DNA of 25,821 nucleotides from a virus, in the IMG/VR virus record IMGVR_UViG_3300048597_000060, positions 1 through 25,821 of that record; one strand, given 5' to 3'. Below are positions 4,623-25,386 of this stretch, piece after piece. Position 1 is the first letter of the stretch. Every line of letters begins with the position of its first letter. Made by a program: the position numbers and the translations under genes. Below the pieces are notes generated by a model, which searched no databases, was not told the origin of the DNA, and saw only the letters and a program-made list of their open reading frames with translations.

Positions 4623-4643
4623 GCCGCCTTCAGCCGCCCCCTC

Positions 4644-4653
4644 TCAACGCACA
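4644..4653 (-). promoter_or_regulatory. late-gene motif copy 5 (TGTGCGTTGA)
   Basis: Minus-strand TGTGCGTTGA followed by GAGGG (TGTGCGTTGAGAGGG). It is in the 41-bp gap between the gp16-like gene and the fibre anchor, with its 3' edge 22 nt before the anchor start. It is one of five perfect copies, all on this strand and all ahead of late genes. Inferred late promoter for the fibre-lysis unit. Confidence 0.6.
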
Positions 4654-4663
4654 GGGCAGCCGC

Positions 4664-7600
4664 CTATTGCGACCAACTCACCACGGGCGATGGTTTCGGG
4701 GTGCGGTCCAGCAACGGAACACCAATGGCGTTCGCAGCCGCGTCCTCAACTTCATTGAGAAGCCGCCGCGTCGCCCACAGGTTTTGCAGCGGAAGCAGTT
4801 GCCGGGCATTGGCGATGGTGCGCGCCGAGGTCTGCCCTGAAGCCACATCACCCATCACGCCGGCCAGCTTTTCGGCCTTGCCGACAGTCGGGCCGAGCAA
4901 TTGCCCAACGAATGAGTTGTTGGACGTGCGCGCCAGCGGCTTGTCCGCGCCAATGAGGCGGAACGCATCGACGCGACCGCGCGTCAGTTTGGCGGATATG
5001 TTGTTTCCCTCTTCGAACCAGCCGAGCACGCCAGACTTCGAAATGCCCTCTTTCACCCAATCTTGCGGGCGCTCAGGCAGCGGCTTGCCGGAAAGGGCCG
5101 AGTAGATGCCAGCCGAGATCATGCCGGCAGAAATTGACGTGACCAGCATCGCAAGGCTGGCCGCGTCCGAACGCTGAAGATTGGCGATCAGGATGCGTTC
5201 CGTCGCGCCTGCGATGAAGCTCTTGTGCTGGCCGATCAGCCGCCCGACAGGACGCGACATCCATAGAGGTTTCTCTTGCCCTGGCGAAACCACTGCAATC
5301 TCGACTTCGCGGGCCAGCGCGCCCTCGAAAATCTCCCGCGCCTTTCCGTCCGTCCACTTGGCTGTATTGGGAAGGTGCGTCGTCCCGATCACGTCCTTGC
5401 TGGCGTCGAATTGGTCGAAGATGCGCCGGGCCATGTCCGCGTCAATGCCGCTTTCAGCCAGCGAGGCAATCTGCTTCGCCGTCGCACGGCCTTCTGTGAG
5501 GGCCTTCGTCGCGCGATACATTTCGTTCATCGTCACCGTGCCGGCGACGGTCTTTGCCCAATCAGTCCAGTATGCCTGGAGGTTGATCAGGTTGAACTTC
5601 TCGCCAGCATAATAGATGCCGCGCTCGAACTTCGAAACAGGCTCGAAGGGGCTTTGCAGGTCGGCCAGTGAGCGGCCATGCGTGGCGTGCCAGACTTCGC
5701 TCGCAACGCCCATGCTTTGCAGTTGCCGCCCCGATTCCTTGAACCCTGAAGGTATGCCAGCAAGTTCTTTTGCGAACGGAACCCACCCTTCGCTGAAGGT
5801 GTTCATGAAGCCCTGCCGGCCAATGATGTTGGCAATGTCCGCCATCGAGTTGAACGCCGCCGTTCCAAGATCGGCCAGCATGTTCAACGCAAGGACAAGC
5901 GTTCCGATGCGCCCGATATTTCGCGCCAACCCGCCTTCAGACCAGCCATAGACGCCGCGCACGCGCAGAAGAACACCGTCAATCTTCTCCAGGGTCCGCA
6001 CCCGTTCGGCTTCCAGCTTCGCCCGCGTCTTTGCATCAGGAGCCGCCGTTATCATCCGCTCGAAATCTTCAGCGACAGCCTGCTTTTGCACCTTCAGATC
6101 ATTTGATCCGAACTGCTCAATCAGCCGAAGGTCAGGAACAACCGTGCGCGTGTAGGCCCGCATCAGGTCATCGGCGCGGTTGACCAGAAAACCCTCAATC
6201 ACTTCGTCCGGTATCTGGAAAGCCCGACGCGCGAGCGGGCCACGAAGCCGGCCCAGCGCCGAGTTGGGATCGACGCCCGCTGTCTCTGCATCCCTGAAGA
6301 ACAGCCGCCCGCCAGGTGTGCCCTTGATGTTGTCAACGATCTGCATGGCGACTTCACGCAACTCTTGCGGCGACAGGTCAGGGTCACTTTCAATGATGCG
6401 TTTCGCCGCCGTCACAATGTCGCCATCGGCAGAGCGGGAGCGCGGCAGTGTTTCAGCGGCACCAACCGCCGCTTCGCCCGATGCCCTGTCGCGCGCCTTG
6501 ATCGAGGACAGGGCTTCCCGCGCCGTCTTGCCACCCCATCTGCCAATTTCCTCTTCAATCCCGGCAACGGCATCATCCTGCGCACGGCGCGCAATGTCGC
6601 GGGCCTCCGCAAGCAGGGCCTGCTTCCGTTCGGCGGCATCAAGCCGCTCAGCCAATGCCTGCGCCCGCTTCTCATTGACGGTCGCGGCCATGCGCGCTTC
6701 GTCCGCACGCGCACCGGCCACTTTCACGCCCGTCTCGGCAGAAGCCTTCCCGGCTTCAGCCTTGCGAAGCGTCGCCTTCAGCGCGGCGATCTGTTCTTTC
6801 GTCGCAGTGATGGCTTCCCCGGTCGCTTCCAACCGGATCGTCAGCGGCACCCCAGCCGCTTCCCGTTCCAGCGCGTCAATCGCCTCGTTCACGACACGGC
6901 CCGGCCCGTCGCGCATCCCGTCCCATTTTCCGGTCACGAATTCGGCAATGATCCTTTTGCCTTCCTGCACGGCGGCGCGTTGTTCAGCCTGCACGGCGGC
7001 GCGTTTGGTGGCATCGGCAGCCAGAACGTCCGCGATCCGCTTTTGGGCATTCCGTCCGCCTTCCTTCGCAATGCGTGCGACATCATCCACCACGCTCGAC
7101 TTGGGCATGGCGGGGCGCGTCGGAATCTCGACAGGAGATTCGCGGGCGATGATTTCAGCCCAATCCGCCGCCGCGAACAGCGGATCATTGCTCCTGAGTT
7201 GCCCAACATTGAACTCGGCATCAAAGAAGCCGGGGTTGCGTCCGGAAATGGCCGCATCGAGCATGTCCACGACTTCAGCCGGCGTATATCGGTCCACACC
7301 GTATCGACCGGCATCAAGTTCCGAGATGGCTTCCGCCAATTCGTCAAGCGTCTTTCCGGTGCCTTTCTTCGCCACGAGGCCGCGATACCCGGCCCCCTTG
7401 GCGCTTTCCCCCAGCATCTTCACTTCACCGCGCAAGAACTCATCGGGATTGATGCCACCGCTCTTGATGACATAATCAACCAAAGAAAATTCGCGCTTCG
7501 GCCAGTTCCGCTCGCCAGTCAGCATCCCCGCCGCCAGCTTTGTTTCAGGGTCACGCAGCGCGCCTGCAACTTCACTCGCACGCTGGCGATCCAGATCATC

Positions 7601-9286
7601 GAGCGTCACCCGCGACCGCTCTTCAGCGGCAGACAGCGCGCGATATTCATTCTGCAACTCAGTAACACGCGCCTTCAGGTCCGCGCTTATCGGCCCAGCC
7701 TCCAAGTCGCGCAGGAACTCCCCAATGTCGGAATCCTTCTCAGCCGCGACGCCCAGCCGATCACCCGTCGCCTCAGCCCGTCCAGCCGTGCGCGTCGCCT
7801 CCATGCCGCGTTCGTCACCGCGCGCGCGAAGGACAGCAAGCCGGCGATCAATCCTTTCAAGCTGCGCTTCTACCCGCGCCTCAGCATCGGCTGCAACACG
7901 GCGCGCGGCATCAAGTGTCTCCACCTTGTCCTTCACGCCAAGCTTGCGCACCTGTTCAGTTCCCAGCCATCCCGTGAAGCGATGAATTAACTCGTCTTGC
8001 CAGGCGATGATCTGCGGCACGTCCCACATGCGCAGGAGCCAGCTTTGCTGCTGCTCCAACGTCATGTCTTCAGGGAGGATGCCAGCTTTCTTGAGACGTT
8101 CCCAATAGCCGCCGTCGAGTATTTCGGAACGCAGGCGCTTTGCGGCTTCATTGGCTTCTGGTATTGCGCTTTCATAATGCGGGCGCATGGCGCGACCGAC
8201 TTCCTCCAAGAACTCCATCGGGCCAACTTTGCCTTCAGGCACCGCCCCGCGCATGGCGTCGAAAGCGGCCTTGTCCTGGCCCAGCTTGCGCCCGGTATCC
8301 CCGAAATAGTGCATCTGAAACGCATCATCGAGAATCGTGGTGCTCAGCATCTGCACCTGTTTCTGTTCCTGCGTGATGGCCCGTGAGGCGGCAAGGCCCT
8401 GCGTCTGCGCCACCCCCTGCGCCGCGTCTTCAGTGCGCAGAGCGGTTTCAGCCAGATCGAGCATCAATCGGCGTGAAGCTTGCGATTCAGACTGAAGGAC
8501 ATCACGCACCGGAGAGAATCGGCGCACCACCTCACCGAGCCAAGGAACCTTGTCGAGGCCGAACCCGACCAACTGGCCAGTGCGCATATCGGCAGCCGCC
8601 GCACCGGCAGAGGCGGGTTGAGGGTTGAACCCGCTCGCTGCGTCTTCAGCGAACCGAGCGTTCAGCGCCGTTCGCTCCGCAGCCGAGAGGAACTTGGAAG
8701 CCCCGGCCCCAAGGATGCCACCAAGCACCGTGGCGAAGGCGATTGTTTCCGCCGCGTCCTGTCCCGTCCGCGTGATCTGCGTGGGCTGCAACACAGCCTC
8801 TTGTGCCGCCGCGCCAGCCGCAGCCCACGCTGCGACCGACATGGCAGACTTGCCAGCCGCCCAAGACGTGCTCCCCGCCCGATAGAGCGCGCCGCCCGGC
8901 AAGGCTATCGTCGGGTCAAGGATGCCCATGCCGATCTGCGCTACCACACCGCCCCAGCCGGCTTCGCTCAGCACCTTCTTGTCCGCCTCTTCACCGTCGA
9001 TCTGGCGCATGACAGCGCGTGTCTCAGCCGATGAGCGGGAGCCTACGAAAGCGTTCAGATGGCGAGCCTCATAAGGCGTGTCCTTGATGAGATCGAGCGG
9101 GTTGTGTCCCGGCTCATCTTCATAGGCCCCGCCCGATGCAACCAGCCAGTTTCCGAGCGAGCCAACCGTGTTGGCCTGCCTGAAAGCCGCGCCGAGCAGC
9201 GAAGGCGCATTGGGATCAGGCGCTTGGATGCCTTGCCCAAGATTGCCCCGGAACCCTTCCGATTCGTCATAAGACCGGAACCCCAT
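4664..9286 (-). CDS. large internal virion / DNA-ejection protein (gp16-like)
   Basis: 1540 residues, the longest gene. Its ATG shares a base with the upstream stop (TGATG). Residues about 105-200 hold several hydrophobic Gly/Ala-rich stretches that could enter the host membrane (GWGGVVAQIGMGILDPTIAL and FATVLGGILGAGA). Long charged helical regions lie near 460-620 and 750-900, rich in Ala, Arg, Glu and Asp (coiled-coil-like). The last 400 residues contain further hydrophobic pieces (NMLADLGTAAFNSM, MLVTSISAGMISAGIYSAL). Length, layout and position after two other internal proteins match the largest T7-type ejection protein, which leaves the head and helps DNA cross the envelope. The N-terminal transglycosylase domain of T7 gp16 is not visible; a CHAP domain in the preceding gene may replace it. 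Confidence 0.8.
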   Translation of the reverse strand: MGFRSYDESEGFRGNLGQGIQAPDPNAPSLLGAAFRQANTVGSLGNWLVASGGAYEDEPGHNPLDLIKDTPYEARHLNAFVGSRSSAETRAVMRQIDGEEADKKVLSEAGWGGVVAQIGMGILDPTIALPGGALYRAGSTSWAAGKSAMSVAAWAAAGAAAQEAVLQPTQITRTGQDAAETIAFATVLGGILGAGASKFLSAAERTALNARFAEDAASGFNPQPASAGAAAADMRTGQLVGFGLDKVPWLGEVVRRFSPVRDVLQSESQASRRLMLDLAETALRTEDAAQGVAQTQGLAASRAITQEQKQVQMLSTTILDDAFQMHYFGDTGRKLGQDKAAFDAMRGAVPEGKVGPMEFLEEVGRAMRPHYESAIPEANEAAKRLRSEILDGGYWERLKKAGILPEDMTLEQQQSWLLRMWDVPQIIAWQDELIHRFTGWLGTEQVRKLGVKDKVETLDAARRVAADAEARVEAQLERIDRRLAVLRARGDERGMEATRTAGRAEATGDRLGVAAEKDSDIGEFLRDLEAGPISADLKARVTELQNEYRALSAAEERSRVTLDDLDRQRASEVAGALRDPETKLAAGMLTGERNWPKREFSLVDYVIKSGGINPDEFLRGEVKMLGESAKGAGYRGLVAKKGTGKTLDELAEAISELDAGRYGVDRYTPAEVVDMLDAAISGRNPGFFDAEFNVGQLRSNDPLFAAADWAEIIARESPVEIPTRPAMPKSSVVDDVARIAKEGGRNAQKRIADVLAADATKRAAVQAEQRAAVQEGKRIIAEFVTGKWDGMRDGPGRVVNEAIDALEREAAGVPLTIRLEATGEAITATKEQIAALKATLRKAEAGKASAETGVKVAGARADEARMAATVNEKRAQALAERLDAAERKQALLAEARDIARRAQDDAVAGIEEEIGRWGGKTAREALSSIKARDRASGEAAVGAAETLPRSRSADGDIVTAAKRIIESDPDLSPQELREVAMQIVDNIKGTPGGRLFFRDAETAGVDPNSALGRLRGPLARRAFQIPDEVIEGFLVNRADDLMRAYTRTVVPDLRLIEQFGSNDLKVQKQAVAEDFERMITAAPDAKTRAKLEAERVRTLEKIDGVLLRVRGVYGWSEGGLARNIGRIGTLVLALNMLADLGTAAFNSMADIANIIGRQGFMNTFSEGWVPFAKELAGIPSGFKESGRQLQSMGVASEVWHATHGRSLADLQSPFEPVSKFERGIYYAGEKFNLINLQAYWTDWAKTVAGTVTMNEMYRATKALTEGRATAKQIASLAESGIDADMARRIFDQFDASKDVIGTTHLPNTAKWTDGKAREIFEGALAREVEIAVVSPGQEKPLWMSRPVGRLIGQHKSFIAGATERILIANLQRSDAASLAMLVTSISAGMISAGIYSALSGKPLPERPQDWVKEGISKSGVLGWFEEGNNISAKLTRGRVDAFRLIGADKPLARTSNNSFVGQLLGPTVGKAEKLAGVMGDVASGQTSARTIANARQLLPLQNLWATRRLLNEVEDAAANAIGVPLLDRTPKPSPVVSWSQ

Positions 9287-12768: not shown

Positions 12769-12769
12769 C

Positions 12770-13711: not shown

Positions 13712-15822
13712 CAGGTCGCCTCCATCGTCACTTCGAGAAGCGTGAACTTGCCGGGCACCATCGTCCTGATACGGAATTGCGGATCGAACGACCGCCCAAG
13801 CGGGCGCGTGCGATAGACCTCTTCGCGCAGGGGCGGCTCTTCGCCTTGATCTTCACCAGCCCGATAGAAGCCGATCACCATCGAACCGACTTCAAGCGCC
13901 TGCGTCCGCAGGAACTTCGTCGCAACGCGCGCCAGCCGGCGACGGCGCATCCTTTGCCCACGCGATTCCCCTTCCGGAGCCTGGGGAACAAAGGGCATGA
14001 CTTCGGTCTGAAAATGGAAGCCAACCAGCTTGCTTCGTCCCGGAACAATCGGAAGGCCAGACGGGAACACGCCAGCGGCCACCACCCCCTCACCCCGTGG
14101 CCATCCCTCTTGCATCAGCCAATAGCTCATGCCGTTGACCAGCAGTCCCGCAGGCGCATCCGGGTTGACTGTGGCATCCGTCAGAACCGTGTCGTCTTCA
14201 ACTTCCAGAAGACGGACGGGGCCATCAGGAGCGTCATACTCAACGATCATGGCGACTTCGCCATCTCCAGCCGCGTGAATCCAGAGCACGCGCCCAACGC
14301 CATCCCAAGGCAGCCACCCGACGAACTCACGGCGCTGCTGATAGCGGGCTACGGCCATCGTGCCGTCCTCATTGACGACATAGATGTATCGTTCCGGAGC
14401 CGAAACGTCGGATGAGGAAACCGCCATGGCGACCGGGCGTTTGAACAGCGCCGAATGGCGTTCCGAAAGATCATCGATGATATATGGCCGGGCCGCTTGG
14501 CCGGTCCCTATCATCGTCATGACTCGCGTTCGGGCCGAGTTGATGAAAACCAGACCGTCCGTCGATGGCTGGGGCTTGATGCGCGAGGAAGCATCACGCG
14601 AAATCTCACGGAACTCGACAGAGCCGGGCTTCAGCGGGTTGCCGGTCGAAATGGGGATATAATACAGCGCAAGGTCAGTGAACACGAACTGATCAGGCCC
14701 GCCGACAAGATGCAGCACCGTGCAGTTGTCAGGCACGAGTTCGAGGAACGCCTGATCCGCTTCCGGCCCAATGGCGAAATTGAATGGATCAGCAATACCG
14801 CCTTCCAGAATGGCGCGGCTCAACTGCCTGAAGCGGCAGAAGATCAGGCGCTGGCGGTCAAAGCTCACCGAGCCGGGCCAGCCACGAGCGGCAGAACAGA
14901 AAGCTTCGTCCCAAAATGTCCAGGCGGCGGGCGTCGTTTCCGCCGAGGCGGTCACCTTTGTCTTCGAACCCGGCGAAATGATGTTTTCATCAGCCTCGAA
15001 GCCGCTCCAGTTCTTGCTGACAAGCACGCTCAGAATCGTTCCAGAAATGGCAGTGACAAGCCCCTCACAGCCGCTTGTCTGGCCCGTCACAACATCACCG
15101 ACCTGAAAGCCAGCAGTGCTCACAACCGTCACGGAAAGAGTAGGGGGAAGCTGTTCAATCACCGTTGCGCGAACCTGCGAAGGCGACACAAACTCGCTTA
15201 CCTGAACCTGACGTTCGCCATAGCGCAGCCTCACCCCGACATAGCTGGAATTGAACACAGCCGCACTGGCGGTCAGCAGCACAGTTCCGGAACGTGCCGT
15301 TGGTTGAAGGGTGATCGCGCGCTCAGGCTGGAACTGATAGAAGGCTTCAAGGCTTTCGCCATTTGGTCCAACACCAAAGCGAAAATCCGCGCTGGACCAT
15401 GAGCCAGACACAGGATCAAGTGTCAGCACAACCGGCCTGAAGGTCGGATGCACGACAAACAAGCGGTTATCGACACTGACCCAAACGATTTCGGAAACCG
15501 TTTGCGCTGTCCAGGGAAGGCTTGTCAGGACAACTGTGAGGGCAGACACGCTTTCGACCGGGACCAGCGTAACGGACCCATCCGAGAACAGGACGCGCCA
15601 CTCCTCTTGCGATGTGAAGCGAATACGTTCACTCACGACAAAATCGCCGCGAGAAATGGCCCGCCTGCCAGGCCGGCGCGTCGCCGCACCTGTCGAAAGC
15701 ACACGCAGATTCCGGCCCACGCGCAAGGACTTGCGCATGAACGCCTCATCATCGCGGCGCATAACCGTGTCATCGGCTTGCCCGGCAGAAAAATCGCGCT
15801 GCGCCCAGGTTATCTTTGTCAC
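13711..15822 (-). CDS. tail nozzle protein (tail tubular protein B, gp12-like)
   Basis: 703 residues, starting at GTG in a GTGA overlap with the adaptor gene. The opening MTKITWAQRDFSAGQADDTVMRRDD, followed by the 'GAATRRPGRR' segment, is typical of the podovirus nozzle family, where 'F..G..S....R.D' and 'RPG' motifs recur. The middle is beta-rich with WPGSVSFDRQRLIFCRF..., GPEADQAF, QFVFTDLALYYIP and SSDVSAPERYIYVVNEDG. The protein would form the distal tube of the short tail. No catalytic domain was seen. It is encoded between the gp11-like adaptor and the ejection proteins, the standard order. Confidence 0.88.
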   Translation of the reverse strand: MTKITWAQRDFSAGQADDTVMRRDDEAFMRKSLRVGRNLRVLSTGAATRRPGRRAISRGDFVVSERIRFTSQEEWRVLFSDGSVTLVPVESVSALTVVLTSLPWTAQTVSEIVWVSVDNRLFVVHPTFRPVVLTLDPVSGSWSSADFRFGVGPNGESLEAFYQFQPERAITLQPTARSGTVLLTASAAVFNSSYVGVRLRYGERQVQVSEFVSPSQVRATVIEQLPPTLSVTVVSTAGFQVGDVVTGQTSGCEGLVTAISGTILSVLVSKNWSGFEADENIISPGSKTKVTASAETTPAAWTFWDEAFCSAARGWPGSVSFDRQRLIFCRFRQLSRAILEGGIADPFNFAIGPEADQAFLELVPDNCTVLHLVGGPDQFVFTDLALYYIPISTGNPLKPGSVEFREISRDASSRIKPQPSTDGLVFINSARTRVMTMIGTGQAARPYIIDDLSERHSALFKRPVAMAVSSSDVSAPERYIYVVNEDGTMAVARYQQRREFVGWLPWDGVGRVLWIHAAGDGEVAMIVEYDAPDGPVRLLEVEDDTVLTDATVNPDAPAGLLVNGMSYWLMQEGWPRGEGVVAAGVFPSGLPIVPGRSKLVGFHFQTEVMPFVPQAPEGESRGQRMRRRRLARVATKFLRTQALEVGSMVIGFYRAGEDQGEEPPLREEVYRTRPLGRSFDPQFRIRTMVPGKFTLLEVTMEAT

Positions 15823-16421
15823 GTCGGCCAGCGCAGGCCACGCGGACCCGCCCCCCTGCGACGCAGCGCAGACGTGGACTTGAACACAGCCCGCCGCCCA
15901 CCTTGCCGGTCCGTCTGGAATCGGACCTGTTCAAGAAGATCATTGAAGGCCCCCAACCGACGATCAGCCCGCGTGTCCTCTTCGTTGAGGCCACGAAGGA
16001 TCAGTTCTTCAACCTTGACCGTCAGAAGCTCGCGGAAGTTCAGCGGCCATTGATCCGCAGGAGGCGCACGGACATAGGAGACTTCCACGCCATCTTCATA
16101 GGGCAGGCAAAGCTTGCCGCCCGCCATCTCGTAATTCGAGACAGGAATGCCGCTCACATAGACAGCTTCGACATGCAGGCATTCTGTCGGAAGGGCGAAA
16201 GCCACTTCGAAAAGGACAGACGGGCTGGACAGCGCACGAGACGAAAGCGCAATGCGCTTCTTGGCAAAGTTCCATTCATGGGCATTCAGCAGCGATCCAA
16301 GCGCCCGGCGATAAGCTGACTCAGACGCAATCCATTCATCCGAGCCGTCATGTTCGACGGTCAGTGGATTGTTGCCAGTGGCGATCAGGGCATCATTGAT
16401 GATCTGGAGACGTGCCGACAT
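15819..16421 (-). CDS. head-tail adaptor (tail tubular protein A, gp11-like)
   Basis: 200 residues, ATG preceded by AAGG seven bases upstream. The family pattern is plain: IINDALIATGNNPL, ESAYRRALGSLLNAHEWNFA, LPTECLHVEAVYV and the C-terminal 'LTVKVEELILRGLNEE' helix. The protein links the portal ring to the nozzle and carries fibre attachment sites. It is the first gene after the intrinsic terminator and after the fourth late-motif copy, so it probably opens the tail transcription unit. The last 30 residues are Arg/Gly-rich and possibly disordered. Confidence 0.9.
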   Translation of the reverse strand: MSARLQIINDALIATGNNPLTVEHDGSDEWIASESAYRRALGSLLNAHEWNFAKKRIALSSRALSSPSVLFEVAFALPTECLHVEAVYVSGIPVSNYEMAGGKLCLPYEDGVEVSYVRAPPADQWPLNFRELLTVKVEELILRGLNEEDTRADRRLGAFNDLLEQVRFQTDRQGGRRAVFKSTSALRRRGAGPRGLRWPT

Positions 16422-16452
16422 GCCAGCACCTTGAGAGCGTCACCCTTCATCA

Positions 16453-16462
16453 TCAACGCACA
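16453..16462 (-). promoter_or_regulatory. late-gene motif copy 4 (TGTGCGTTGA)
   Basis: Minus-strand TGTGCGTTGA followed by TGATGAAGGG, 31 nt upstream of the gp11-like start. Its first base lies in the T-run of the terminator at 16462-16503, giving a back-to-back terminator and candidate promoter. GAGGG is missing in this copy, though GAAGGG occurs a few bases further on. Confidence 0.6.
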
Positions 16463-16503
16463 AACGAAAACCCCGCCCCCCATTGTGGCTATGGGGAGCG
16501 GGG
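16462..16503 (-). terminator. rho-independent terminator after the head genes
   Basis: On the minus strand CCCCGCTCCCCAT and ATGGGGGGCGGGG form a 13-bp stem with a single G-T wobble and a seven-base loop (AGCCACA), followed by TTTTCGTTT. It lies 33 bp after the stop of the 69-residue gene and before the gp11-like gene. The opposite strand has no T-run, so it acts on late transcription only. It should reduce read-through from capsid to tail genes. Confidence 0.9.
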
Positions 16504-16536
16504 CCGAACAACCCGACAGGACAGGGGGGAGAGCAG

Positions 16537-16746
16537 TCAGGTTGAAGCGGTGAAAGACTCTTCAGCTTCTGACGCAGCAACCACGTCATCGGCCTTGCCG
16601 GGCTTGGCGGCTTTCGCACCGCGAACGGCCTTTGGTTCGAGAGCTTCCCAGCCCTTGCCGGGCTTGGTTGACGACTCGAATTCATCTCCGGCGCGGAGAC
16701 GAGAGCCATCGACGAACAGGGCTTCCTTGGCACGATAGCGGGGCAT
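16537..16746 (-). CDS. small basic/acidic hypothetical protein at the end of the head unit
   Basis: 69 residues; ATG preceded by GAGGA nine bases upstream. The first 35 residues (MPRYRAKEALFVDGSRLRAG and following) look like a small beta domain seen in short phage head-region proteins with a 'R..AG..F' motif. Two near-identical KPGKG/KPGKA segments and an Ala-rich, acidic C-terminus (AASEAEESF) follow. It is the last gene before the terminator and follows the cement-protein gene by 33 bp. Function unknown; a minor head protein is possible. Confidence 0.75.
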   Translation of the reverse strand: MPRYRAKEALFVDGSRLRAGDEFESSTKPGKGWEALEPKAVRGAKAAKPGKADDVVAASEAEESFTAST

Positions 16747-16779
16747 TGTGCTTGATCCTCAGCGTGGTTCAGGTGGTGC

Positions 16780-17229
16780 TCAGAGAGCGTCGGCGTAAGC
16801 CTTCCAGCGACGAACGTCGTTCGTCAGGAAAGCATTGATCTTGCCCGCCGTCAGCGCAGCCGTGCCCACGTTCTGGACGATGCCGATGTATCGTTCATAG
16901 GCCGGCGCTTCGACGGGCAGCGCGACAGCGCAGACCTGATAGCCGGCGATCAGCGTTGCTTTCGGAATTGCCGCCGTCGCGAAGTGGACGGTCGCGGAGC
17001 CATCGACCGCAATCGCGGCCTGCGCATCCGAAACCAGTTCGAATGAGACGGTGGCCGAGCCAGCCGAAGTGACGGCGGTATCCACCTGGATGACCAGGTA
17101 GAGCGTATCGCCAATGTCGCCGCCAGCCGTTGCGCCAAGGTCGATCACATCACCGACCAGAGCGCGGCCCGTCGCGGCGGTGGACAGCGCCGTAGCGTCT
17201 GCGAATTCGTTTCGTTCGTCGAGGATCAT
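16780..17229 (-). CDS. Bbp16-like capsid cement/decoration protein
   Basis: 149 residues; ATG with GGAG nine bases upstream, 40 bp after the capsid gene. It opens MILDERNEFADATAL, continues with VIDLG..., then DTLYLVIQVDTAVTSAGSATV, ends KINAFLTNDVRRW, and is almost all beta with low charge. This agrees with the family of Bordetella phage BPP-1 Bbp16, a protein that dimerises at capsid two-fold axes and stabilises the shell. Position right after the major capsid gene is as in BPP-1. Identification is by recalled pattern and synteny. Confidence 0.78.
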   Translation of the reverse strand: MILDERNEFADATALSTAATGRALVGDVIDLGATAGGDIGDTLYLVIQVDTAVTSAGSATVSFELVSDAQAAIAVDGSATVHFATAAIPKATLIAGYQVCAVALPVEAPAYERYIGIVQNVGTAALTAGKINAFLTNDVRRWKAYADAL

Positions 17230-17269
17230 GGGAGTCCGCTCCGGTTCAGGTTCAGGTTTCCGCCGCGCC

Positions 17270-18262
17270 TTACGACACGGCGGCTTCGGTGTTCAGAATG
17301 CGGTCGAGGCGGCGAACCGGGATGTCGTCGAATGTCATCACGCGCTTGCCGGCGACCGACTCCCAGGTGAGGTTGTTCGCGATCTTCTCCTGAATGCCGA
17401 TGCGAAGCTTCTCCCGGATCGTGCGGTTCACGTAGAAGCAGGCCTTGCCCATGCCGAAGGACGGGATGACCTCGGAAGCCTGAATCATCCACTGGATCAG
17501 GTTCTTCGTGTTGGCGACCGTGTTCAGGTCGCTCACGTCGATGTTGGCGACGCGCGCCACATAGCGCCAGTCACGCAGGCACAGGCCCAAATCCCAGCGG
17601 TAATGCGTGCGGTAGGCTTCCATCCGGCCACCGGCACCATCGACGTTTTCGAGGGTCACCTGGCCCTTGTCGGTCACCTGAAGGCCTGCCTTCGACCCTT
17701 TCGGGAAGATGCCGTGGCAGGTATTCGGACCCCACACGACCAGCCAGATTGACGTGTTGTCGGAACCGGAGCCGCCTGCGTTGATGATGTTCAGCGCATT
17801 CTCGGCACTCAGGCTGTTGTAGCGCGGCGCAAGGCCCGTGATCTCTTCCGGAGCCGTGGCTTCATTCGAATACACCATCGAATCAGCCGCCTCCTGGGAA
17901 AGCGCTTCGATGAACGCGCGCTCTTCAGTCAGCCTGAACTCGGCGGTGTTGCCGTTCAGATCGGCCAGCGCCTTGTCCACTTCGGCATAGGCTTCGAGCA
18001 TACCAGTCGTGTCCGTGACGGCGCGGGTGGCAGACTTCGAAGGCTGCACACCGCCATAAAGCTTGCGCCATGTGACGGTCGGAAGGCCCGTGCGGATGGT
18101 GCTGCGATGGCCGGTCGGAAGGTTGCCCTCCATGAACGGGGCATCTTCCAGCATCTCATTCGTCTGGCTCAGAAGCTCGACGATGGCTGGAACGGAACCG
18201 TTCGGATCGAGGCGGTTCGCCCAATCGAGGAGCGTCGGGTGGGTTGCAGCCAAGGTCGCCAT
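17270..18262 (-). CDS. major capsid protein (BPP-1 Bbp17-like)
   Basis: 330 residues; ATG with AGGAAG seven bases upstream, directly after the scaffold stop. Typical pattern of the podovirus capsid family: LLDWANRLDPNGSVPAIVELL, MLEDAPFMEGNLPTGH, TVTWRKLYGGV, then FIEALSQEAADSMVY, NIINAGGSGSDNTSIWLVVW and the late FYVNRTIREKLRI and VMTFDDIPVRRLDRIL segments. This is an HK97-fold shell protein that assembles on the scaffold encoded just upstream. The scaffold, capsid and cement genes form one unit bounded by a late-motif copy and the terminator. Confidence 0.93.
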   Translation of the reverse strand: MATLAATHPTLLDWANRLDPNGSVPAIVELLSQTNEMLEDAPFMEGNLPTGHRSTIRTGLPTVTWRKLYGGVQPSKSATRAVTDTTGMLEAYAEVDKALADLNGNTAEFRLTEERAFIEALSQEAADSMVYSNEATAPEEITGLAPRYNSLSAENALNIINAGGSGSDNTSIWLVVWGPNTCHGIFPKGSKAGLQVTDKGQVTLENVDGAGGRMEAYRTHYRWDLGLCLRDWRYVARVANIDVSDLNTVANTKNLIQWMIQASEVIPSFGMGKACFYVNRTIREKLRIGIQEKIANNLTWESVAGKRVMTFDDIPVRRLDRILNTEAAVS

Positions 18263-18263
18263 G

Positions 18264-19037
18264 TCAGTTCTTCCTCGTCATGGTGGGGTAAAGTCGGTCA
18301 GCAAGGGACACCGAAGCCGGATCGACGCCGGGAACACGCCCGGCCCCGCTGGCGGCTGGCATTCCCCCATTCTTCAACTGTGACTGGAGGGCTTCGAGCG
18401 CCTTCACCGCTTCAGCGGAATAGATGCCCGGAGCGAGGGCCTTCCAGCCTGTCTCGCCAACGGAGGCGGTCAGGAAGGTCTTCAGATTATCAAGCCGCGC
18501 CTGCGCGTTTGCCCCAAGCGTCTGCATCTCCATCTGATGCGCCTGCTCGACAGCCTTGAACTTCGCGGCTTCAGCCTGCGCATAGATGCCGGCAAGCTGG
18601 TTCACGGCGGCTGGATCGACCTTGTGGCCGTGCGCCCATGTCTTCAGCGCCGGCACCATCGGATTCTTGTCATCCAGTTGGAACGTGACGCCTTCAGGGA
18701 ACTTCACATCATCTGGAAGCGCCAGTTGATAGTCGTCAGGTTTGGCCGGCAAACCGGCAAGGCGCGCGTCCTGCTGCGCCTTGAACTCGGAAAGCTGCTT
18801 GAACTGCGCCGCAACTTCATCCGTCTTCAGCGCGCCAGTTGCCGCATCCCAGAAAGATTCGAGGCCAGCGGGAGCTTGTGGAGCGGGAGCAGAGCCATCA
18901 GGCGCGCTTGCCGGAGGGCTTGCCGATGGATTCGGGGACGCGGCGGCGGACGCCTGCTCCACGCCCGGCTGGGGCGATGGATTCGCGCCTGCGTCGGCTG
19001 GCGTCGATGTCGTCTGCGAGGTCGCGTCGTTCGTCAT
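18264..19037 (-). CDS. capsid scaffolding protein
   Basis: 257 residues from the ATG at 19037, preceded by GGAAG; a TTG reading to 19064 has no ribosome site. Residues 1-70 are low-complexity Pro/Ala/Ser. Residues about 75-230 are helical, with a KPDDYQLALPDDVKFPEGV segment of the type found in scaffold or assembly proteins of many phages, followed by a Gln/Ala-rich coiled coil. The C-terminus (SVSLADRLYPTMTRKN) is short and basic and probably contacts capsid subunits. It is encoded immediately before the capsid gene. A late-motif copy lies about 67 nt upstream, inside the end of the Bbp19-like gene. Confidence 0.87.
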   Translation of the reverse strand: MTNDATSQTTSTPADAGANPSPQPGVEQASAAASPNPSASPPASAPDGSAPAPQAPAGLESFWDAATGALKTDEVAAQFKQLSEFKAQQDARLAGLPAKPDDYQLALPDDVKFPEGVTFQLDDKNPMVPALKTWAHGHKVDPAAVNQLAGIYAQAEAAKFKAVEQAHQMEMQTLGANAQARLDNLKTFLTASVGETGWKALAPGIYSAEAVKALEALQSQLKNGGMPAASGAGRVPGVDPASVSLADRLYPTMTRKN

Positions 19038-19251
19038 GGGCTTCCGGTCGTGTGGCGTAACCAATAAGTTGCGCCGCGAACCTGCGCGTCCCGTTCAAAT
19101 CCCTCAACGCACAATCATCCTCGTTCACTGGACCGACAGTCATGACCACCTGTCGCAGATGCAGAAGAGCCGTCTTCCCGTCAGGCGTGTCGAAGATGCG
19201 CCGCCAGGCATCCCCGATGTCATCCGCCAGCGTCCGCGCCCCATCCGCCAT
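18898..19251 (-). CDS. Bbp19-like small head protein
   Basis: 117 residues, starting in a TAATG overlap with the portal stop. The first 70 residues carry the Bbp19-type pattern: WRRIFDTPDGKTALLHLRQ, a short loop, then CALRDLNGTRRFAAQLIGY. The last 45 residues are Arg-rich, of low complexity, and overlap the scaffold gene by 140 nt, so the original stop may have been lost. The late-motif copy at 19104-19113 lies inside the coding part and encodes CAL. Known relatives lie next to the portal in BPP-1-like phages; exact function is not known to me. Confidence 0.72.
   Translation of the reverse strand: MADGARTLADDIGDAWRRIFDTPDGKTALLHLRQVVMTVGPVNEDDCALRDLNGTRRFAAQLIGYATRPEAHDERRDLADDIDASRRRRESIAPAGRGAGVRRRVPESIGKPSGKRA
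19104..19113 (-). promoter_or_regulatory. late-gene motif copy 3 (TGTGCGTTGA)
   Basis: Minus-strand GATTGTGCGTTGAGGGAT, about 67 nt upstream of the scaffold start and inside the Bbp19-like gene. It shares GATTGTGCGTTGAG with the terS copy, a 14-base identity. Inferred promoter of the scaffold-capsid-cement unit, the one that needs highest output. Confidence 0.6.
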
Positions 19252-20861
19252 TACACAGCCCCTTCAGGCGGGAGGCCGGGAACCCCGGCTGGAACGCCCG
19301 GCATCGCCCCCGGAGCACCGCCGCCACCAAGGAGCGAGCCGAACTGATCGATCGCCTGTCCTATGCCCTTCTGATCGCGGAACACCACAAGCTCGTCGCG
19401 CATCTTTTCCTTGATGTTCTTCAGCGTCGCGGCCTGATCGCAGATCGCTTCGAATGTCTGAGGGAACGCCGTGCGCCCGATCTCGACAAGCCGCGTCGCC
19501 ATCGCAACCTTCTGGTTATCCTGCGCCGCTTCAGTCGGATTGTAGGGCACAAGCGTCACCTGAAGCCCGTTCAGGTTGTAGCCCTCTGGAATCTTGCCGT
19601 CCTTCTGGAGCAGCCAGCGGAAGCGCCGGAACACTTCCATGGGAACTTCCTTCCAGAACGTCAGGCCCGGCGTGCCGATCCGCTGCTGCGCCATCATCAT
19701 CTCGTCAAGCCACTGCTGCGCTGTCGGAGGCGTCTTGCCCTTCTGCTGCGCAAAGTCCACGAAATGAAGCCGCCTGATCCGCTCTTCGACCTTGGCGATT
19801 TCGAACGTCGTGAAGTCCACATTGCCTTCGAACGACAACTTGGTGATGTCGCGGCCAGAGCCGGGCCGCATCGGGTAGCCCATGCCCGGCTCAATTCCGC
19901 CAGACAGATTGATGATGCCATCATCCGGGAACCCGAACGGCGGATGCACCTGAAAATCAAAGTTCTCGATCTTCAGCGCCTCGACTTCATCCAGCCGGCG
20001 AAGCTCAGGCAGCGATTTGATTGTCGGCCCGCGTCCAAAGGCGAACATCGGATCAGGATCGAACCGCCCGACCACCAGCGGGCAGGCCCCATGACCTTTC
20101 AACTCGCCTTCCGCAACCCGCTTCCCGTCGGCATAGACAACCGCCTGCCACCAGCAATCATCGTCGCGGTCCCACAGACGCCACCAGCCCCAGGTCACGA
20201 TGCACCGGCCTTGCGGCGAGTTCTCAACCTTGCGGCGGACTTCATCGGGAAGCTTCACGCCCGGCAGTAATGCCATCAGGTCGCCAAACCGGGTATGCCT
20301 CACCATGAACCTGTCATCGACATCGCCATAGGGGCCGACATTGATCTCAAGTTCGCGCAGAGGCACAGGGATTGTCATGACAGGATCAGACGCACGGGGC
20401 TGGCCAATCCACATCGCCACAGTGCCAAGGCACGCATCAGGCCAGAACGCCTGTGCAGCCGAGCTGTAAAACCCGCTGCTCTTCATCGTGTCGAAGATCA
20501 GCCGCGTATCGAGAAGAATGTTCTGCTGCAATTCTTCAATCGCGCCTTCCGGCAGCGCGTCGGGAGAAGGAAGGCCCGTCCCCGTCTTCTGATTTGCCCA
20601 TTCCAGCGTCGAGGGCATGAACGTATCGAGCAGGTAGCCAGCAAACTCCTGGCCGACTTCCATTCCAAGCGACGTGCTGGCTTCACTCGCCTGACTCGAT
20701 TCAGGTTCAGTCGGGCGCGTCATCGACGACAGGTCGCGGCAGCGGTGCGGATCGACAAAGAAATACGCCTCGCGCATGTCCAGTTCGATGCGCCGCTTCT
20801 GTTCGCGCGCATCAGACAGACGGCGCTTGAAATCCTTGTCGAGCTTGTCCCCGTCCTTCAT
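19251..20861 (-). CDS. portal protein (T7-type head-tail connector)
   Basis: 536 residues, ATGA overlap with the upstream coiled-coil gene. It has the T7-group portal pattern: an N-terminal helix region with R.....R, then the SLGMEVGQEFAGYLLDTFMP segment, an LGTVAMWIG strand, IPVPLRELEINVGPYGDVD, and FAFGRGPTIKSLPELRRLDE. The C-terminal part has EERIRRLHFVDF and PPTAQQWLDEMM, and ends in a Gly/Pro-rich tail. It forms the dodecameric ring at the packaging vertex, engaging the terminase and later the gp11-like adaptor. No frameshift is seen. Confidence 0.94.
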   Translation of the reverse strand: MKDGDKLDKDFKRRLSDAREQKRRIELDMREAYFFVDPHRCRDLSSMTRPTEPESSQASEASTSLGMEVGQEFAGYLLDTFMPSTLEWANQKTGTGLPSPDALPEGAIEELQQNILLDTRLIFDTMKSSGFYSSAAQAFWPDACLGTVAMWIGQPRASDPVMTIPVPLRELEINVGPYGDVDDRFMVRHTRFGDLMALLPGVKLPDEVRRKVENSPQGRCIVTWGWWRLWDRDDDCWWQAVVYADGKRVAEGELKGHGACPLVVGRFDPDPMFAFGRGPTIKSLPELRRLDEVEALKIENFDFQVHPPFGFPDDGIINLSGGIEPGMGYPMRPGSGRDITKLSFEGNVDFTTFEIAKVEERIRRLHFVDFAQQKGKTPPTAQQWLDEMMMAQQRIGTPGLTFWKEVPMEVFRRFRWLLQKDGKIPEGYNLNGLQVTLVPYNPTEAAQDNQKVAMATRLVEIGRTAFPQTFEAICDQAATLKNIKEKMRDELVVFRDQKGIGQAIDQFGSLLGGGGAPGAMPGVPAGVPGLPPEGAV

Positions 20862-21286
20862 GCCGCGCGAGCACCCAGGCTTGAAACGCCATAGACCTTG
20901 CGGAGAAGCGCAGTGCGCCGGCCAAGGTCATCCTGAAGGGCAAGAAGGCTTGTGGCTTGCGCCCTGCTGTCCGCCTTCTTGACCAATTCATCCTGCTTCT
21001 TCTGCGCCGCCGCTTGATCCGCCGCAGCCGCGTTGGCCTGCTGCAAATACTGCTGCTGCGCCGCAGCAAGGCTGCGCTGTTCCTGCTGCGCCCGCAATGT
21101 CGCTTCGGTCTGCGCCCGAAGCGCGGCAGATTGTTCCTGAAGATAGCGTTCCTGCGCGGCACGCGCTTCAGACGCCTGCCGTTCCTGTTCCTGCTGTGCC
21201 ATGGTCTGGCTTATCAGCGCCATGCGCGCTTCCCGACCGCTGCCACCAACCAGTGGGCCAATTGCCGCCGTTGTTGTCTCGCCCAT
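20858..21286 (-). CDS. Ala/Gln-rich coiled-coil protein between terminase and portal
   Basis: 142 residues from the ATG at 21286, with GGAG/GAAGG 4-10 bases upstream; an ATG at 21334 is possible but lies almost on the late motif. After a short Gly-rich start (GETTTAAIGPLVGG), residues about 20-115 are one long helix of Ala, Gln, Glu and Arg (ALISQTMAQQEQERQASEAR and on). The C-terminus (LLALQDDLGRRTALLRKVYG then SSLGARAA) is conserved-looking. It could be a minor head or internal core protein. No family recognised. The gene overlaps the portal by ATGA and is the first gene after a late-motif copy. Confidence 0.75.
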   Translation of the reverse strand: MGETTTAAIGPLVGGSGREARMALISQTMAQQEQERQASEARAAQERYLQEQSAALRAQTEATLRAQQEQRSLAAAQQQYLQQANAAAADQAAAQKKQDELVKKADSRAQATSLLALQDDLGRRTALLRKVYGVSSLGARAA

Positions 21287-21680
21287 TGCCTTCAATCTCC
21301 GCGCCGTGGCGCAGACATTGCCGATAGAAGGCATCCGGCCTCAACGCACACCCGCCGACGCCGGCAAGATGCGCCATCGCAGGAACGCACCAGAACCCCA
21401 CACGGAGCCATCGACGGCGCACCACGCCGCCCGCGATCCGAAGCGTCACATTCCCGGCCCGAAGTCCTTCAATCACCGCCCAGGTCGCAGGCTCATCCCG
21501 GCCCAGGCTGATCTTCGTCCGCCCAAGCGTCACATCGTAGATCAACCAGCACTGCGCATCCGGCAGCCAGGCGAACGCCAGCACATGCTTGAACCGGCCC
21601 ATCGCAATGAAACTCAGCCACCGCGTCCGCGCCTTCCGCTGGAAAACAAGGAACCACAGCGGCGGTTCATTCAGGACCAT
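21168..21680 (-). CDS. hypothetical protein after the large terminase
   Basis: 170 residues from an ATG sharing a base with the terL stop (a GTG three bases earlier is also possible). Residues 1-115 look like a compact alpha/beta domain rich in Trp (PLWFLVFQRKARTRWLSF, FKHVLAFAWLPDAQCWLIYD). A segment CALRPDAFYRQCLRHG follows. The last 40 residues are Gly/Asn/Trp-rich, unlike a folded domain, and overlap the next gene by 119 nt; the ancestral stop was probably nearer 21290. The FKHVLAF plus CWLIYDV layout slightly recalls papain-like folds, but no Cys-His pair can be assigned. Function unknown. Confidence 0.65.
   Translation of the reverse strand: MVLNEPPLWFLVFQRKARTRWLSFIAMGRFKHVLAFAWLPDAQCWLIYDVTLGRTKISLGRDEPATWAVIEGLRAGNVTLRIAGGVVRRRWLRVGFWCVPAMAHLAGVGGCALRPDAFYRQCLRHGAEIEGNGRDNNGGNWPTGWWQRSGSAHGADKPDHGTAGTGTAGV
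21341..21350 (-). promoter_or_regulatory. late-gene motif copy 2 (TGTGCGTTGA)
   Basis: Minus-strand TGTGCGTTGAGGCCGGAT, 54 nt upstream of the coiled-coil gene start and inside the preceding hypothetical gene, where it encodes CAL. Inferred start of the coiled-coil, portal and Bbp19-like unit. Confidence 0.55.
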
Positions 21681-23260
21681 CACACTCGCCTCAGGGAGCG
21701 CCGCTCATACACCCGCACCGGCTCTGCATTGCGACCGCGACCCGTCACGATGTCACCCTCACCACCGCCGACAACCGCATACTGAAGCGCGTCCGCAATA
21801 TCCGAATATCCCTGCTTGTCCTTCTCCGGCACATAAACCCCAACCCGCGCCGACGACTCTTCGAAGTGATACCCACCGGCCATCGCCATCTTCAGCTTCC
21901 GGCACCTTGGCGACACAAGCAGCGCAGGCGAGCCATCAACCATCCGCATCAACAGGTTCTCCACCGCACCAAGCCGCAACTCGATGTTATTCCCCTTCAC
22001 TGGCGCAGGGCGCACCTTCATTCCGTGTGTGTCCCAAATCTCATAGGCCGTCGTCTCGTTCGACTGCACCCCATCCTGCCCCTTGGGATCACCCCAGAAC
22101 ACAACGCCGGCACATTCGACCGCCCCCCCCGGCCCCATCACGGCCCGCCCGCTCAGCACGCCAGGAAACCGCCGCGCCAGAAATGCCTTCACCATCGGAG
22201 CAAACACCGACGCCGAAACATCAACCGCCGTCAATTCATCCAGAACGACCCAGCGCAATCCAACCTGCTGACAGAAAACCGCCGCAGGACGGCGACCAAA
22301 ATCAAGCCCGACAATCAGCGGATACCCCGGCTGATACCGCAATTCATTCCGCGCGACATGCGTCTCTTCCCGAAACTGGCCCCACACCGGCTTCCCACGT
22401 AACGGAGCAGTGATCCGGTTCATCAGGTTCGAGTCAATCCACCGACGACCCTTCCCCTTCAGCGTCTCCAGATAATACGGCTTCCCGTTAATGTCCGGAA
22501 TCCACCGCACATTCTCCGCAACAGGGTTCATCCGATACCCCGAAACCGTCTTCCCATCCGCAGCCATCTCCTCGACCAAAGCCGCAGGCTGCGTAAAATA
22601 CTCCCAACCATCAGGCCACCGGTAAGCCAGACGATCCTCCTCAGGCATGTCATCAGGAAGTGGAACCTCACCCGTCAGCATCACCAGCCAGTGATCCTCA
22701 CTCGGAGAGTTCATGTCCGCAATCAGCCCCGTCCACGTCGGACCACCATCCTTCAGCGCCGGGAACTGACCACACCGTGATTCAGCCTCATCAAAAATCG
22801 CCCGATCAATGAACTGCAACTCATTGATCCACCCCCCGGTCCATTCCGTCGATTTCAGCTTCCCAACATCCTCAGGCTTGTCCAACGCCAGAAACTCAAC
22901 CTCAATCTGAACATCAGGAGCAAACTTCGGCCTCAGCACATGCCGATACGGAACAGACCACGTGAACCGCCCGAAAACATCCTCCGGAAACCAGTCCAAC
23001 CACGTCTTGATCGTCGAACGCTTCAAATCCGGATACGTGTTCCTCAGAACAAACCACCGCGTCCGCCTCACACCGTCCGGACCCGCAGCCTGCTCAAACC
23101 CGCGCCGCACCAACTCATGACAACAACACACACTCGTCCCGCTCCGGATAGGACCACGAATAACCCGAACACGAGCATCAGAAGCCATGAACCCGCGCAA
23201 CGTCGCACCATCCGGCACATACACCGTCCGGCCCAACCCATCCCGCGCAAGTTCAACCAT
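21680..23260 (-). CDS. terL: large terminase subunit
   Basis: 526 residues from the ATG at 23260 (a TTG precedes it). N-terminal ATPase: a deviant Walker A GPIRSGTS at 36-43 and a Walker-B-like WINELQFIDRAIFDEAESR. C-terminal RNase-H-like nuclease: first metal-binding Asp D320 in LIVGLDFGRR, a middle acidic FWGDPKG, and final acidic D487/D490 in YSDIADALQYAV. It cuts and pumps DNA into the head through the portal. Codon choice differs from the neighbours: third positions favour G and T (GTT, TTG, CCG, CGG), so the plus strand is notably C/A-rich over this gene. That hints at a separate origin. Confidence 0.92.
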   Translation of the reverse strand: MVELARDGLGRTVYVPDGATLRGFMASDARVRVIRGPIRSGTSVCCCHELVRRGFEQAAGPDGVRRTRWFVLRNTYPDLKRSTIKTWLDWFPEDVFGRFTWSVPYRHVLRPKFAPDVQIEVEFLALDKPEDVGKLKSTEWTGGWINELQFIDRAIFDEAESRCGQFPALKDGGPTWTGLIADMNSPSEDHWLVMLTGEVPLPDDMPEEDRLAYRWPDGWEYFTQPAALVEEMAADGKTVSGYRMNPVAENVRWIPDINGKPYYLETLKGKGRRWIDSNLMNRITAPLRGKPVWGQFREETHVARNELRYQPGYPLIVGLDFGRRPAAVFCQQVGLRWVVLDELTAVDVSASVFAPMVKAFLARRFPGVLSGRAVMGPGGAVECAGVVFWGDPKGQDGVQSNETTAYEIWDTHGMKVRPAPVKGNNIELRLGAVENLLMRMVDGSPALLVSPRCRKLKMAMAGGYHFEESSARVGVYVPEKDKQGYSDIADALQYAVVGGGEGDIVTGRGRNAEPVRVYERRSLRRV

Positions 23261-23263
23261 CAA

Positions 23264-23512
23264 GACACCCCAAACTTTCCAGACCCAGAAAAATTCACCA
23301 CACCCCCCCTCATATCCATGAGAGAAAATCGCGTGGGGGGAGTAGGAGCTTCAGAGACTCCCGCCCAATTTTCCCCCCTCCCCTCCCGGCCTGGCCTTCG
23401 CTCCAGACTTTCCGCCCGCTCAGTGGGGAGAGGCAATCCGGATGGCTCCAGCCGGCCTGCAACCTGTCCAGCCGCTCAACTTTCAGGGCTGGAATGGATG
23501 CCTTCAAGCCCG
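23264..23512 (-). other. gap between the terminase genes with a doubtful 65-codon frame
   Basis: The 249-bp interval between the terS stop and the terL start is unusually long for this tightly packed operon. A minus-strand frame from a TTG at 23507 to 23310 could encode 65 residues (begins MKASIPALKVERLDRLQAGW), but it has no clear ribosome site, family or conserved pattern. The strand has runs of G (GGGAGGGGAGGGGGG and a seven-G run) and a small inverted repeat GGGAGT/ACTCCC. No intrinsic terminator was found. It may be a decayed gene or a cos/pac-type recognition area next to the terminase genes; neither is shown. Confidence 0.3.
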
Positions 23513-24040
23513 TTATTCGTGCTCAATCGTAACGGCATCGTTGAATATCAATGACTTATCATCAGAACCCATGCGACTTGAGATCGCCTTAGGCGCTGCC
23601 TTCTCTCCAGACAGGTCTATAACGTATCCGGATCCGCCGTTGATCTGGACCGATCCGCCGTGAATGTGGATGTTCGAGCCTTCGCCCTCACCCTCGATCA
23701 TCCTCACCGCTTCCAATGCAACCTTTTGTTGGGCTGGCTTGGCGTTGGGGTCCATGCCCTTGTCTCGGATTGATAGGAGGAGGGCGAGGTTGCGGGCTTT
23801 CTCTGCGTTTGTGACTTCCGCGAGGCGCTTGAGGTATTCCTTGCGAATGATCGGATCGTAGAGGTATCGGCGTGCCCGCTTGACCCGGATTCCGGCTGCT
23901 CTGGCTGCATCCATCATGCTTTCACCGAGAATGAGCGCATCGAGGAGGGCTTGCACTCGATCCGAGGCGAGGAGCGTCTTGCCGCCCTGGTCAGTGAACT
24001 GGATTCGCTTTGATGGAGTGGGAGGAGTGCTGCTAGCCAT
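23513..24040 (-). CDS. terS: small terminase subunit
   Basis: 175 residues from the ATG at 24040 (GGAACAGAG upstream); an in-frame GTG at 24067 would add nine residues. Residues about 22-65 form a DNA-binding HTH region (ALLDALILGESMMDAARAAG, then RARRYLYDPIIRKEYLKRL). A central helical part (about 60-105) would mediate ring formation. The C-terminus is a beta segment with IHIHGGSVQINGGSGYVIDL. It recognises packaging sites and directs the large subunit. Its leader carries a small hairpin (CTCGC-TTT-GCGAG, 24081-24093) and starts at the first late-motif copy, so terS heads the whole late cluster. Confidence 0.85.
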   Translation of the reverse strand: MASSTPPTPSKRIQFTDQGGKTLLASDRVQALLDALILGESMMDAARAAGIRVKRARRYLYDPIIRKEYLKRLAEVTNAEKARNLALLLSIRDKGMDPNAKPAQQKVALEAVRMIEGEGEGSNIHIHGGSVQINGGSGYVIDLSGEKAAPKAISSRMGSDDKSLIFNDAVTIEHE

Positions 24041-24149
24041 TCTCTGTTCCGGCGTGAACGCCTTCACCGCTCGCTAGTCGCTCGCTTTGCGAGAAAAGGA
24101 ACGCACGCGTGGCGACGCGAGGAGGGATGCCATGGGCGGTTTTCCCTCT

Positions 24150-24159
24150 CAACGCACAA
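24150..24159 (-). promoter_or_regulatory. late-gene motif copy 1 (TGTGCGTTGA)
   Basis: Minus-strand GATTGTGCGTTGAGAGGGAA, about 110 nt before the terS ATG, at the divergence between late and early genes. No coding sequence lies over it, so this copy cannot be explained by codon constraint. Inferred first late promoter; a good sigma-70 pair is not seen around it on this strand. Confidence 0.6.
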
Positions 24160-24579: not shown

Positions 24580-24614
24580 TGCAAATTGCCTGTTGACATA
24601 TTCGCATTTAATGC
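24571..24614 (+). repeat. two direct copies of a near-palindromic 12-mer (operator candidate)
   Basis: CGCATTTAATGC occurs at 24571-24582 and again at 24603-24614, start to start 32 bp (about three helical turns). Each contains GCATT/TAATGC-type dyad symmetry with one central mismatch. The second copy fills most of the -35/-10 spacer of the promoter at 24593-24620, and the first ends just before the -35 box. Such placement suits a dimeric repressor binding two sites on one face of the helix. Confidence 0.65.
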
Positions 24615-24620
24615 TAGTTT
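24593..24620 (+). promoter_or_regulatory. sigma-70-type early promoter overlapped by the operator candidate
   Basis: TTGACA at 24593-24598, a 16-bp spacer and TAGTTT at 24615-24620, with an upstream TG (ATGCTAG) that may act as an extended -10. It points to the small early genes at 24838 onward. The expected start lies near 24627. Confidence 0.6.
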
Positions 24621-25152: not shown

Positions 25153-25155
25153 GAG

Positions 25156-25383: not shown

Positions 25384-25386
25384 GAC

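Follow-up and report, generated by a model that had tools for sequence, protein, structure and literature searches.

The CII protein of phage lambda controls lysogeny genes from two TTGC repeats that flank the −35 region at PRE, PI and PaQ. C proteins, the controllers of restriction-modification systems, can activate sigma70 promoters and bind palindromic operators, and XRE proteins usually bind inverted repeats. The MotA box of phage T4 lies nearer to −30 and needs AsiA. In phage Mu, the small activator C acts on several dispersed late promoters transcribed by the host RNA polymerase, at a site adjoining or overlapping a poor −35 (PMC4461284). The T4 MotA box has the sequence TGCTTtA (PMC9004378). 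LUZ100, a temperate T7-like phage, encodes an RNA polymerase and has a promoter motif of 17 contiguous bp (PMC10134795).

The DNA analysed here (the window) is an entire virus record of 25,821 bases and almost certainly a fragment of a phage genome. It carries terS, terL, portal, scaffold-like, capsid, tail tubular A and B, large internal-virion-like, fibre and endolysin genes, and the early region is almost wholly missing. At the right the record ends in part of an IS1595-type transposase. This truncated gene closes a divergent plus-strand stretch (24301–25821) with a small HTH-like ORF (24301–24579) and other short ORFs, which may be accessory or host DNA.

An exact search located the 10-mer TGTGCGTTGA five times in the window, always on the minus strand (Table 1). 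Dinucleotide shuffles gave an expectation of 0.09 copies and 0 of 100 shuffles reached five, which bears out the five perfect copies described in an earlier note on this DNA. Four of the five positions listed in that note hold as well, but the copy placed at 24150–24159 lies one base away, at 24149–24158. Allowing one mismatch added a single further site in the window, on the plus strand. The extensions that had been quoted are correct: the 14-mer GATTGTGCGTTGAG occurs twice, at 24149 and 19104, and GAGGG or GAGAGGG follows TGTGCGTTGA at three copies. The exact 14-mer is present in 109 IMG/VR contigs, with one match each among the matches listed, and no other IMG/VR contig carries the box 1 sequence. 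We found no description of the motif, or of the related Microcystis phage Mwe-JY08, in the literature searched.

Table 1. Predicted late promoter elements, terminator and genes of the window.
Feature	Position	Strand	Basis or remark
Box 1, TGTGCGTTGA, before terS-terL; predicted TSS about 24117	24149..24158	-	exact search and site alignment; 9-mer at about −40 to −32
Box 1 −10-like element CATCCCT	24123..24129	-	one base longer than CA-N3-T; sole inexact window site
Box 2, TGTGCGTTGA, before coiled-coil and portal genes; predicted TSS about 21308	21341..21350	-	exact search and site alignment
Box 2 −10 element CAATGT	21315..21320	-	site alignment
Box 3, TGTGCGTTGA, before scaffold and capsid genes; predicted TSS about 19072	19104..19113	-	exact search and site alignment
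Box 3 −10 element CAGGTT	19079..19084	-	site alignment
Box 4, TGTGCGTTGA, before tail tubular A operon; predicted TSS 16421 (A of ATG)	16453..16462	-	exact search and site alignment
Box 4 −10 element CAAGGT	16428..16433	-	site alignment
Box 5, TGTGCGTTGA, before fibre gene; predicted TSS 4611	4644..4653	-	exact search and site alignment
Box 5 −10 element CATGGT	4618..4623	-	site alignment; includes ATG that ORF callers use as start
Intrinsic terminator-like hairpin, end of capsid unit, directly upstream of box 4	16469..16505	-	15 pairs; comparable hairpin and T-run in most relatives examined
terS	23513..24040	-	phrog_3218, E 0.008; ATG 24040, GTG 24067 also open
terL	21680..23263	-	phrog_2
Post-terL gene	21168..21683	-	box 2 inside its 3' part
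Coiled-coil gene, corrected start ATG 21286 (GAAGGcaATG)	20858..21286	-	start inferred
Portal / head-tail adaptor	19251..20861	-	phrog_332
Scaffold-like gene, ATG 19037	18264..19037	-	phrog_3742 and phrog_458; start inferred
Major capsid gene	17270..18262	-	phrog_212
Tail tubular A-like gene, predicted leaderless transcript	15819..16421	-	phrog_394; GTGCGTTG to ATG = 32 nt
Fibre gene, corrected start ATG 4610 (MSSLDQ), predicted leaderless within 1 nt	3960..4610	-	phrog_13481; start inferred

Relatives were collected in three ways. The capsid search returned mostly phages with little in common beyond the capsid and the next gene, the terL search returned closer kin (including Mwe-JY08), and a genome scan added prophages of Bosea, Microvirga, Chelatococcus, Gellertiella, Rhizobium, Ferranicluibacter, Brucella tritici and others. 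Searches of IMG/VR with the portal and with an HTH alignment yielded no usable matches. In the terL relatives GTGCGTTG has 64 copies on the late strand versus 10 on the other. Mwe-JY08 has seven late-strand copies. Several of the closest kin lack GTGCGTTG and carry TGTGCGGTGC or CTGTGCTTTGC about 3–6 times at the same places. The prophages of Bosea, Microvirga, Chelatococcus, Rhizobium and others spell the box GTGCGGTGC or GTGCTTTGC, keep the spelling identical within each genome and have the same genes downstream. Among repeated 10-mers, the box ranks first in the TGTGCGGTGC prophages and in many GTGCTTTGC ones; other repeated words outrank it in several GTGCTTTGC prophages (e.g., L310, L314, L338–L343). 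By gene order, boxes stand before the terS, portal, scaffold, tail tubular A (capsid in the marine group) and fibre genes, a placement that is orthologous in Mwe-JY08, IMG/VR contigs and Hyphomicrobiales prophages. Box 2 is embedded in the coding sequence of the post-terL gene, as are its counterparts in L036 and L201 (our reading of the frames).

The earlier note had asked whether related prophages carry the motif at the same positions and whether it is equally common in the host genome. The relatives carry the motif or a lineage variant at the same genes, and the copies of TGTGCGGTGC cluster in prophages and not across the three host genomes scanned: Bosea, Microvirga and Chelatococcus hold 17, 24 and 14 copies, of which 10, 8 and 8 fall within one stretch of 24–27 kb each. 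Neither the box nor a variant of it was found in L325 and L333, which have a related terL, portal and TTB. L017 and L027 also contain repeats, but these resemble tandem repeats within coding sequence and were rejected as boxes. Among the marine loci (L214, L262, L265, L270 and others), G-runs (GGGGGGGAACACAAGGGGGGG or similar) come about 25–30 nt after the GTGCGTTGAC copy at terS. Two host assignments also drew our attention. Mwe-JY08 (PP395640.1) is recorded as a Microcystis phage and has a terL, portal and regulator that resemble those of alphaproteobacterial prophages; this host label may be doubtful. The L314 prophage is of a Rhizobiaceae-type lineage, sits within a metagenome bin labelled Arenimonas and was possibly mis-binned.

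Aligning the sites of the window phage and its relatives revealed a second conserved element, CA-N3-T, starting 19–20 nt past the 9-mer of the box. The alignment comprised 111 sites in three box classes; removing those with a downstream sequence at least 75% identical to that of an earlier site left 70. The genomes behind this 70-site set had been picked because they carry the motif, and the rule was settled after trials of several k-mer and pattern variants. In this set, the strongest columns besides the box are an A at offset 29 (67%), a T at offset 33 (73%) and a C before the A (60%). The A...T pair has its A at offset 29 in 43 of the 70 sites and at offset 30 in 15, the mean for other offsets being 3.0. 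Likewise, CA...T with the A at 28–30 is found in 38/70 sites versus 3.7% of random late-strand positions, and at 29/30 in four of the five window sites (null, 2.2%). Marine relatives of low GC content in which GTGCGTTG is likewise repeated do not follow the rule at offset 29. As the A at offset 29 and the T at offset 33 match A-11 and T-7 of a sigma70 −10 element, the box is predicted to lie at about −40 to −32 and transcription to start near offset 40. The five words are most likely the upstream halves of bipartite late-gene promoters with a sigma70-type −10, and their reading as a phage-specific late promoter set is well supported by the −10 at constant spacing, the orthologous placement, the register to start codons, the terminator next to the tail box in most relatives examined and the clustering in prophages.

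Short, exact, strand-specific copies before late genes, three of them with a purine-rich continuation, are also what a T7-type single-subunit RNA polymerase might use as promoters, one of the possibilities raised in the earlier note. We regard this as very improbable. The conserved 9-mer and the separate element near offset 28–33, with its A-11 and T-7, do not form a single contiguous block of ~17–23 bp ending at the start site. Moreover, no relative, including records of 44–46 kb, had a match to the polymerase family PF00940 in a search that returned the T7 control at 9.9e-110. The site reads best as that of an activator, the other reading offered in the note, with a −35-region box, a separate −10 and no such polymerase in the relatives. 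The box and its flanks have no dyad symmetry and are not palindromic.

Could the boxes be ordinary sigma70 promoters, constitutive or host-regulated, with a −35 conserved by chance and no phage factor? The TTGA in GTGCGTTGA falls at about −36 to −33, and the marine terS copies have TTGACA and, after a spacer of 17–19 nt, in most cases an element resembling xATAAA, with a G-run behind it. However, the lineages spelled GTGCGGTGC or GTGCTTTGC have poor −35 hexamers and yet keep them identical in each genome. Conservation in the 70-site alignment furthermore reaches upstream to GTGC, and a consensus scan detected zero late promoters in the part scanned. Taken with these features, the explanation by ordinary promoters appears unlikely.

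The predicted starts bear directly on the annotation of late genes. An ATG stands at offset 40, 41 or 42 in 15, 4 and 4 of the 70 sites, respectively (23/70). At the tail tubular A and fibre genes, 31–34 nt separate GTGCGTTG or its variant from the ATG (window, Mwe-JY08, L036, L201, L203, L200 and G003). The distance at tail tubular A is 32 nt in the window, Mwe-JY08, L036 and L201, as it is from GTGCTTTG in L200, and is larger at the tail gene of the Chelatococcus/Bosea-type lineage. Because the predicted starts fall on the tail-tubular-A ATG and no more than 1 nt from the fibre ATG as corrected, both transcripts are probably leaderless. The earlier note placed every copy ahead of a start codon; late genes do follow each copy, but ATG 21334 and ATG 4622 fall within the predicted promoters. 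ATG 4622 probably belongs to a −10 element, with ATG 4610 as the probable true start of the fibre gene, and the coiled-coil gene likely starts at ATG 21286 instead of ATG 21334.

The copy at 16453 directly follows the hairpin at 16505–16469, in agreement with the strong terminator that one copy had been said to abut. Of the 16 genomes compared, most have a terminator-like hairpin immediately before the tail box; Mwe-JY08 is an exception, and the position used for L310 is probably not its tail box. The mean MFE there is −23.6, and it is −11.7 at 34 boxes of other units. A word that recurs at gene boundaries in one orientation could instead be an RNA signal or a replication or packaging signal unrelated to transcription initiation. 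The word, however, keeps a constant distance from a −10-like element and from start codons and has a terminator just upstream. These are features of a promoter, and make such a signal a most implausible explanation.

Early ORFs from four genomes were compared against 18 motif-bearing genomes in search of a candidate activator. An XRE-type helix-turn-helix gene was the only early gene present in 18/18, a count reached with two of the four XRE query versions (17 with the Mwe version and 14 with the Bosea version). The next-best early gene was present in 15/18, the three genomes without it being possibly truncated. G004 and G005 are fragments, and gene absence there carries little weight. In loci with upstream sequence, the XRE gene lies upstream of terS on the late strand. 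It has no strong match in loci without the motif, and only weak XRE matches were recovered from L325 and L333, where the box is absent. The candidates match HTH_3 in Pfam, mostly under the gathering score in the high-GC members, and the Rhizobium-type versions have an additional N-terminal HTH domain. The predicted model, with a core pLDDT of about 90 or more, belongs to the XRE/lambda-repressor-like fold; its Foldseek matches (HipB, C.BclI and C.Esp1396I, E about 0.01) speak to fold class only. In the XRE tree, the GTGCTTTGC lineage is grouped (95/93) and the other box classes are unresolved, so the tree gives no covariation of box and protein. Furthermore, box and XRE variants share one phylogeny, and their co-occurrence is therefore not independent evidence of binding. 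The lack of a palindrome in the box also speaks against an XRE protein, given the inverted repeats that such proteins usually bind. From co-occurrence in the relatives, the XRE-type protein is the likely candidate for activator of the late boxes.

Other phage regulators were also considered. A phage sigma factor, through its region 4, or a sigma-appropriating protein other than XRE (GcrA-like or D5-like) would also give a −35 box at fixed spacing from the −10. Indeed, three relatives (L302–L304) have phage-borne genes of the GcrA family of sigma70 cofactors, and Mwe-JY08 has a D5-like HTH regulator gene. Most motif-bearing genomes examined are, however, without GcrA and D5-like genes, and no Sigma70_r2 match rose above the cut-off in 12 records in a search with positive controls, which very divergent sigma factors could escape. 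A phage sigma factor, which the earlier note had paired with an activator, is thus less likely, and we doubt that any protein of this group is what reads the box. GcrA was rejected as the common factor because it is in too few genomes, as was the D5-like regulator (phrog_323), whose matches in 14/14 control genomes are also unspecific. Either protein could contribute to late transcription. Pfam gave no Mor match, and the Pfam and PHROG scans of ten candidates returned generic HTH matches. The PHROG family annotated as late transcriptional activator (phrog_836) matched L285:8471–9013 at an E of only 0.08.

We favour, with a probability of about 0.7, a late switch in which the host RNA polymerase with its main sigma would use the five boxes as −35 regions (about −40 to −32) under a phage XRE activator. 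The box would stand in for a normal −35 and be bound by the activator, made in the early phase, and the −10 (CA-N3-T, 19–20 nt past the 9-mer) would still be needed. The candidate for this role is the small XRE-type protein whose gene, in relatives, precedes terS on the late strand. Binding and activation would switch on the terS-terL, coiled-coil-portal, scaffold-capsid, tail-tubular and fibre-lysis units together. Tail-tubular and fibre transcripts would start on the first base of the start codon or at most one base away from it, and the terminator directly before the tail-tubular box would part capsid from tail transcription. The boxes, their orthologous placement, the −10 register and the co-occurrence are computed. 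Initiation at these sites, use of the main sigma, and binding and activation by the XRE protein are what we infer from them, the promoter part of the explanation being stronger than the identity of the activator.

A comparable arrangement may exist in phages that are related to the window phage through the capsid and, for the most part, not through the tail genes. In these genomes (L005–L084, e.g., L052, L011 and L078) the word GT[AG]TCCGTG has 129 late-strand copies versus 8, and an A...T pair at offset 27 in 56 of 67 non-redundant sites. These boxes (GTRTCCGTG) would form a parallel late-promoter set with its own fixed −10. Rather tentatively, we propose that an XRE protein acting on a single non-palindromic −35-region box, with leaderless late mRNAs and a specificity that shifts between lineages at fixed positions, might define an undescribed class of late switch, with the GTRTCCGTG boxes as a parallel set.

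For the poorly studied temperate podoviruses of Alphaproteobacteria, the analysis provides a map of late transcription with starts predicted to a base or two. It corrects start codons that gene finders had misplaced within promoters and names one candidate regulator. The predicted leaderless late mRNAs are unusual, and several lineage-specific pairs of box and protein might be developed into orthogonal activators for use in Rhizobium, Bosea and similar hosts.

Compared with the systems described above, the window phage resembles T7 and LUZ100 in being a podovirus whose late genes have several phage-specific promoters, and its relatives are without such a polymerase by the PF00940 search. T4 MotA offers the likeness of a short −35-region word with a normal −10; the similarity to TGCTTT in one lineage is possibly chance. 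Lambda CII is alike in its lambda-repressor-like fold class and in an activator site at the −35 of sigma70 promoters, but a single box and late lytic genes set the present system apart, and weak CII-like PHROG matches are confined to marine HTH proteins. C.BclI, C.Esp1396I and HipB are the closest solved folds to the predicted XRE core, but these proteins are not phage late regulators and their operators are palindromic, unlike the box here. The candidate proteins, with weak HTH_3-type Pfam matches and no Mor/C match, differ from Mu C, as does the box, a short non-palindromic word within the −35 region. The logic of the proposed switch is nonetheless the same as that of Mu C.
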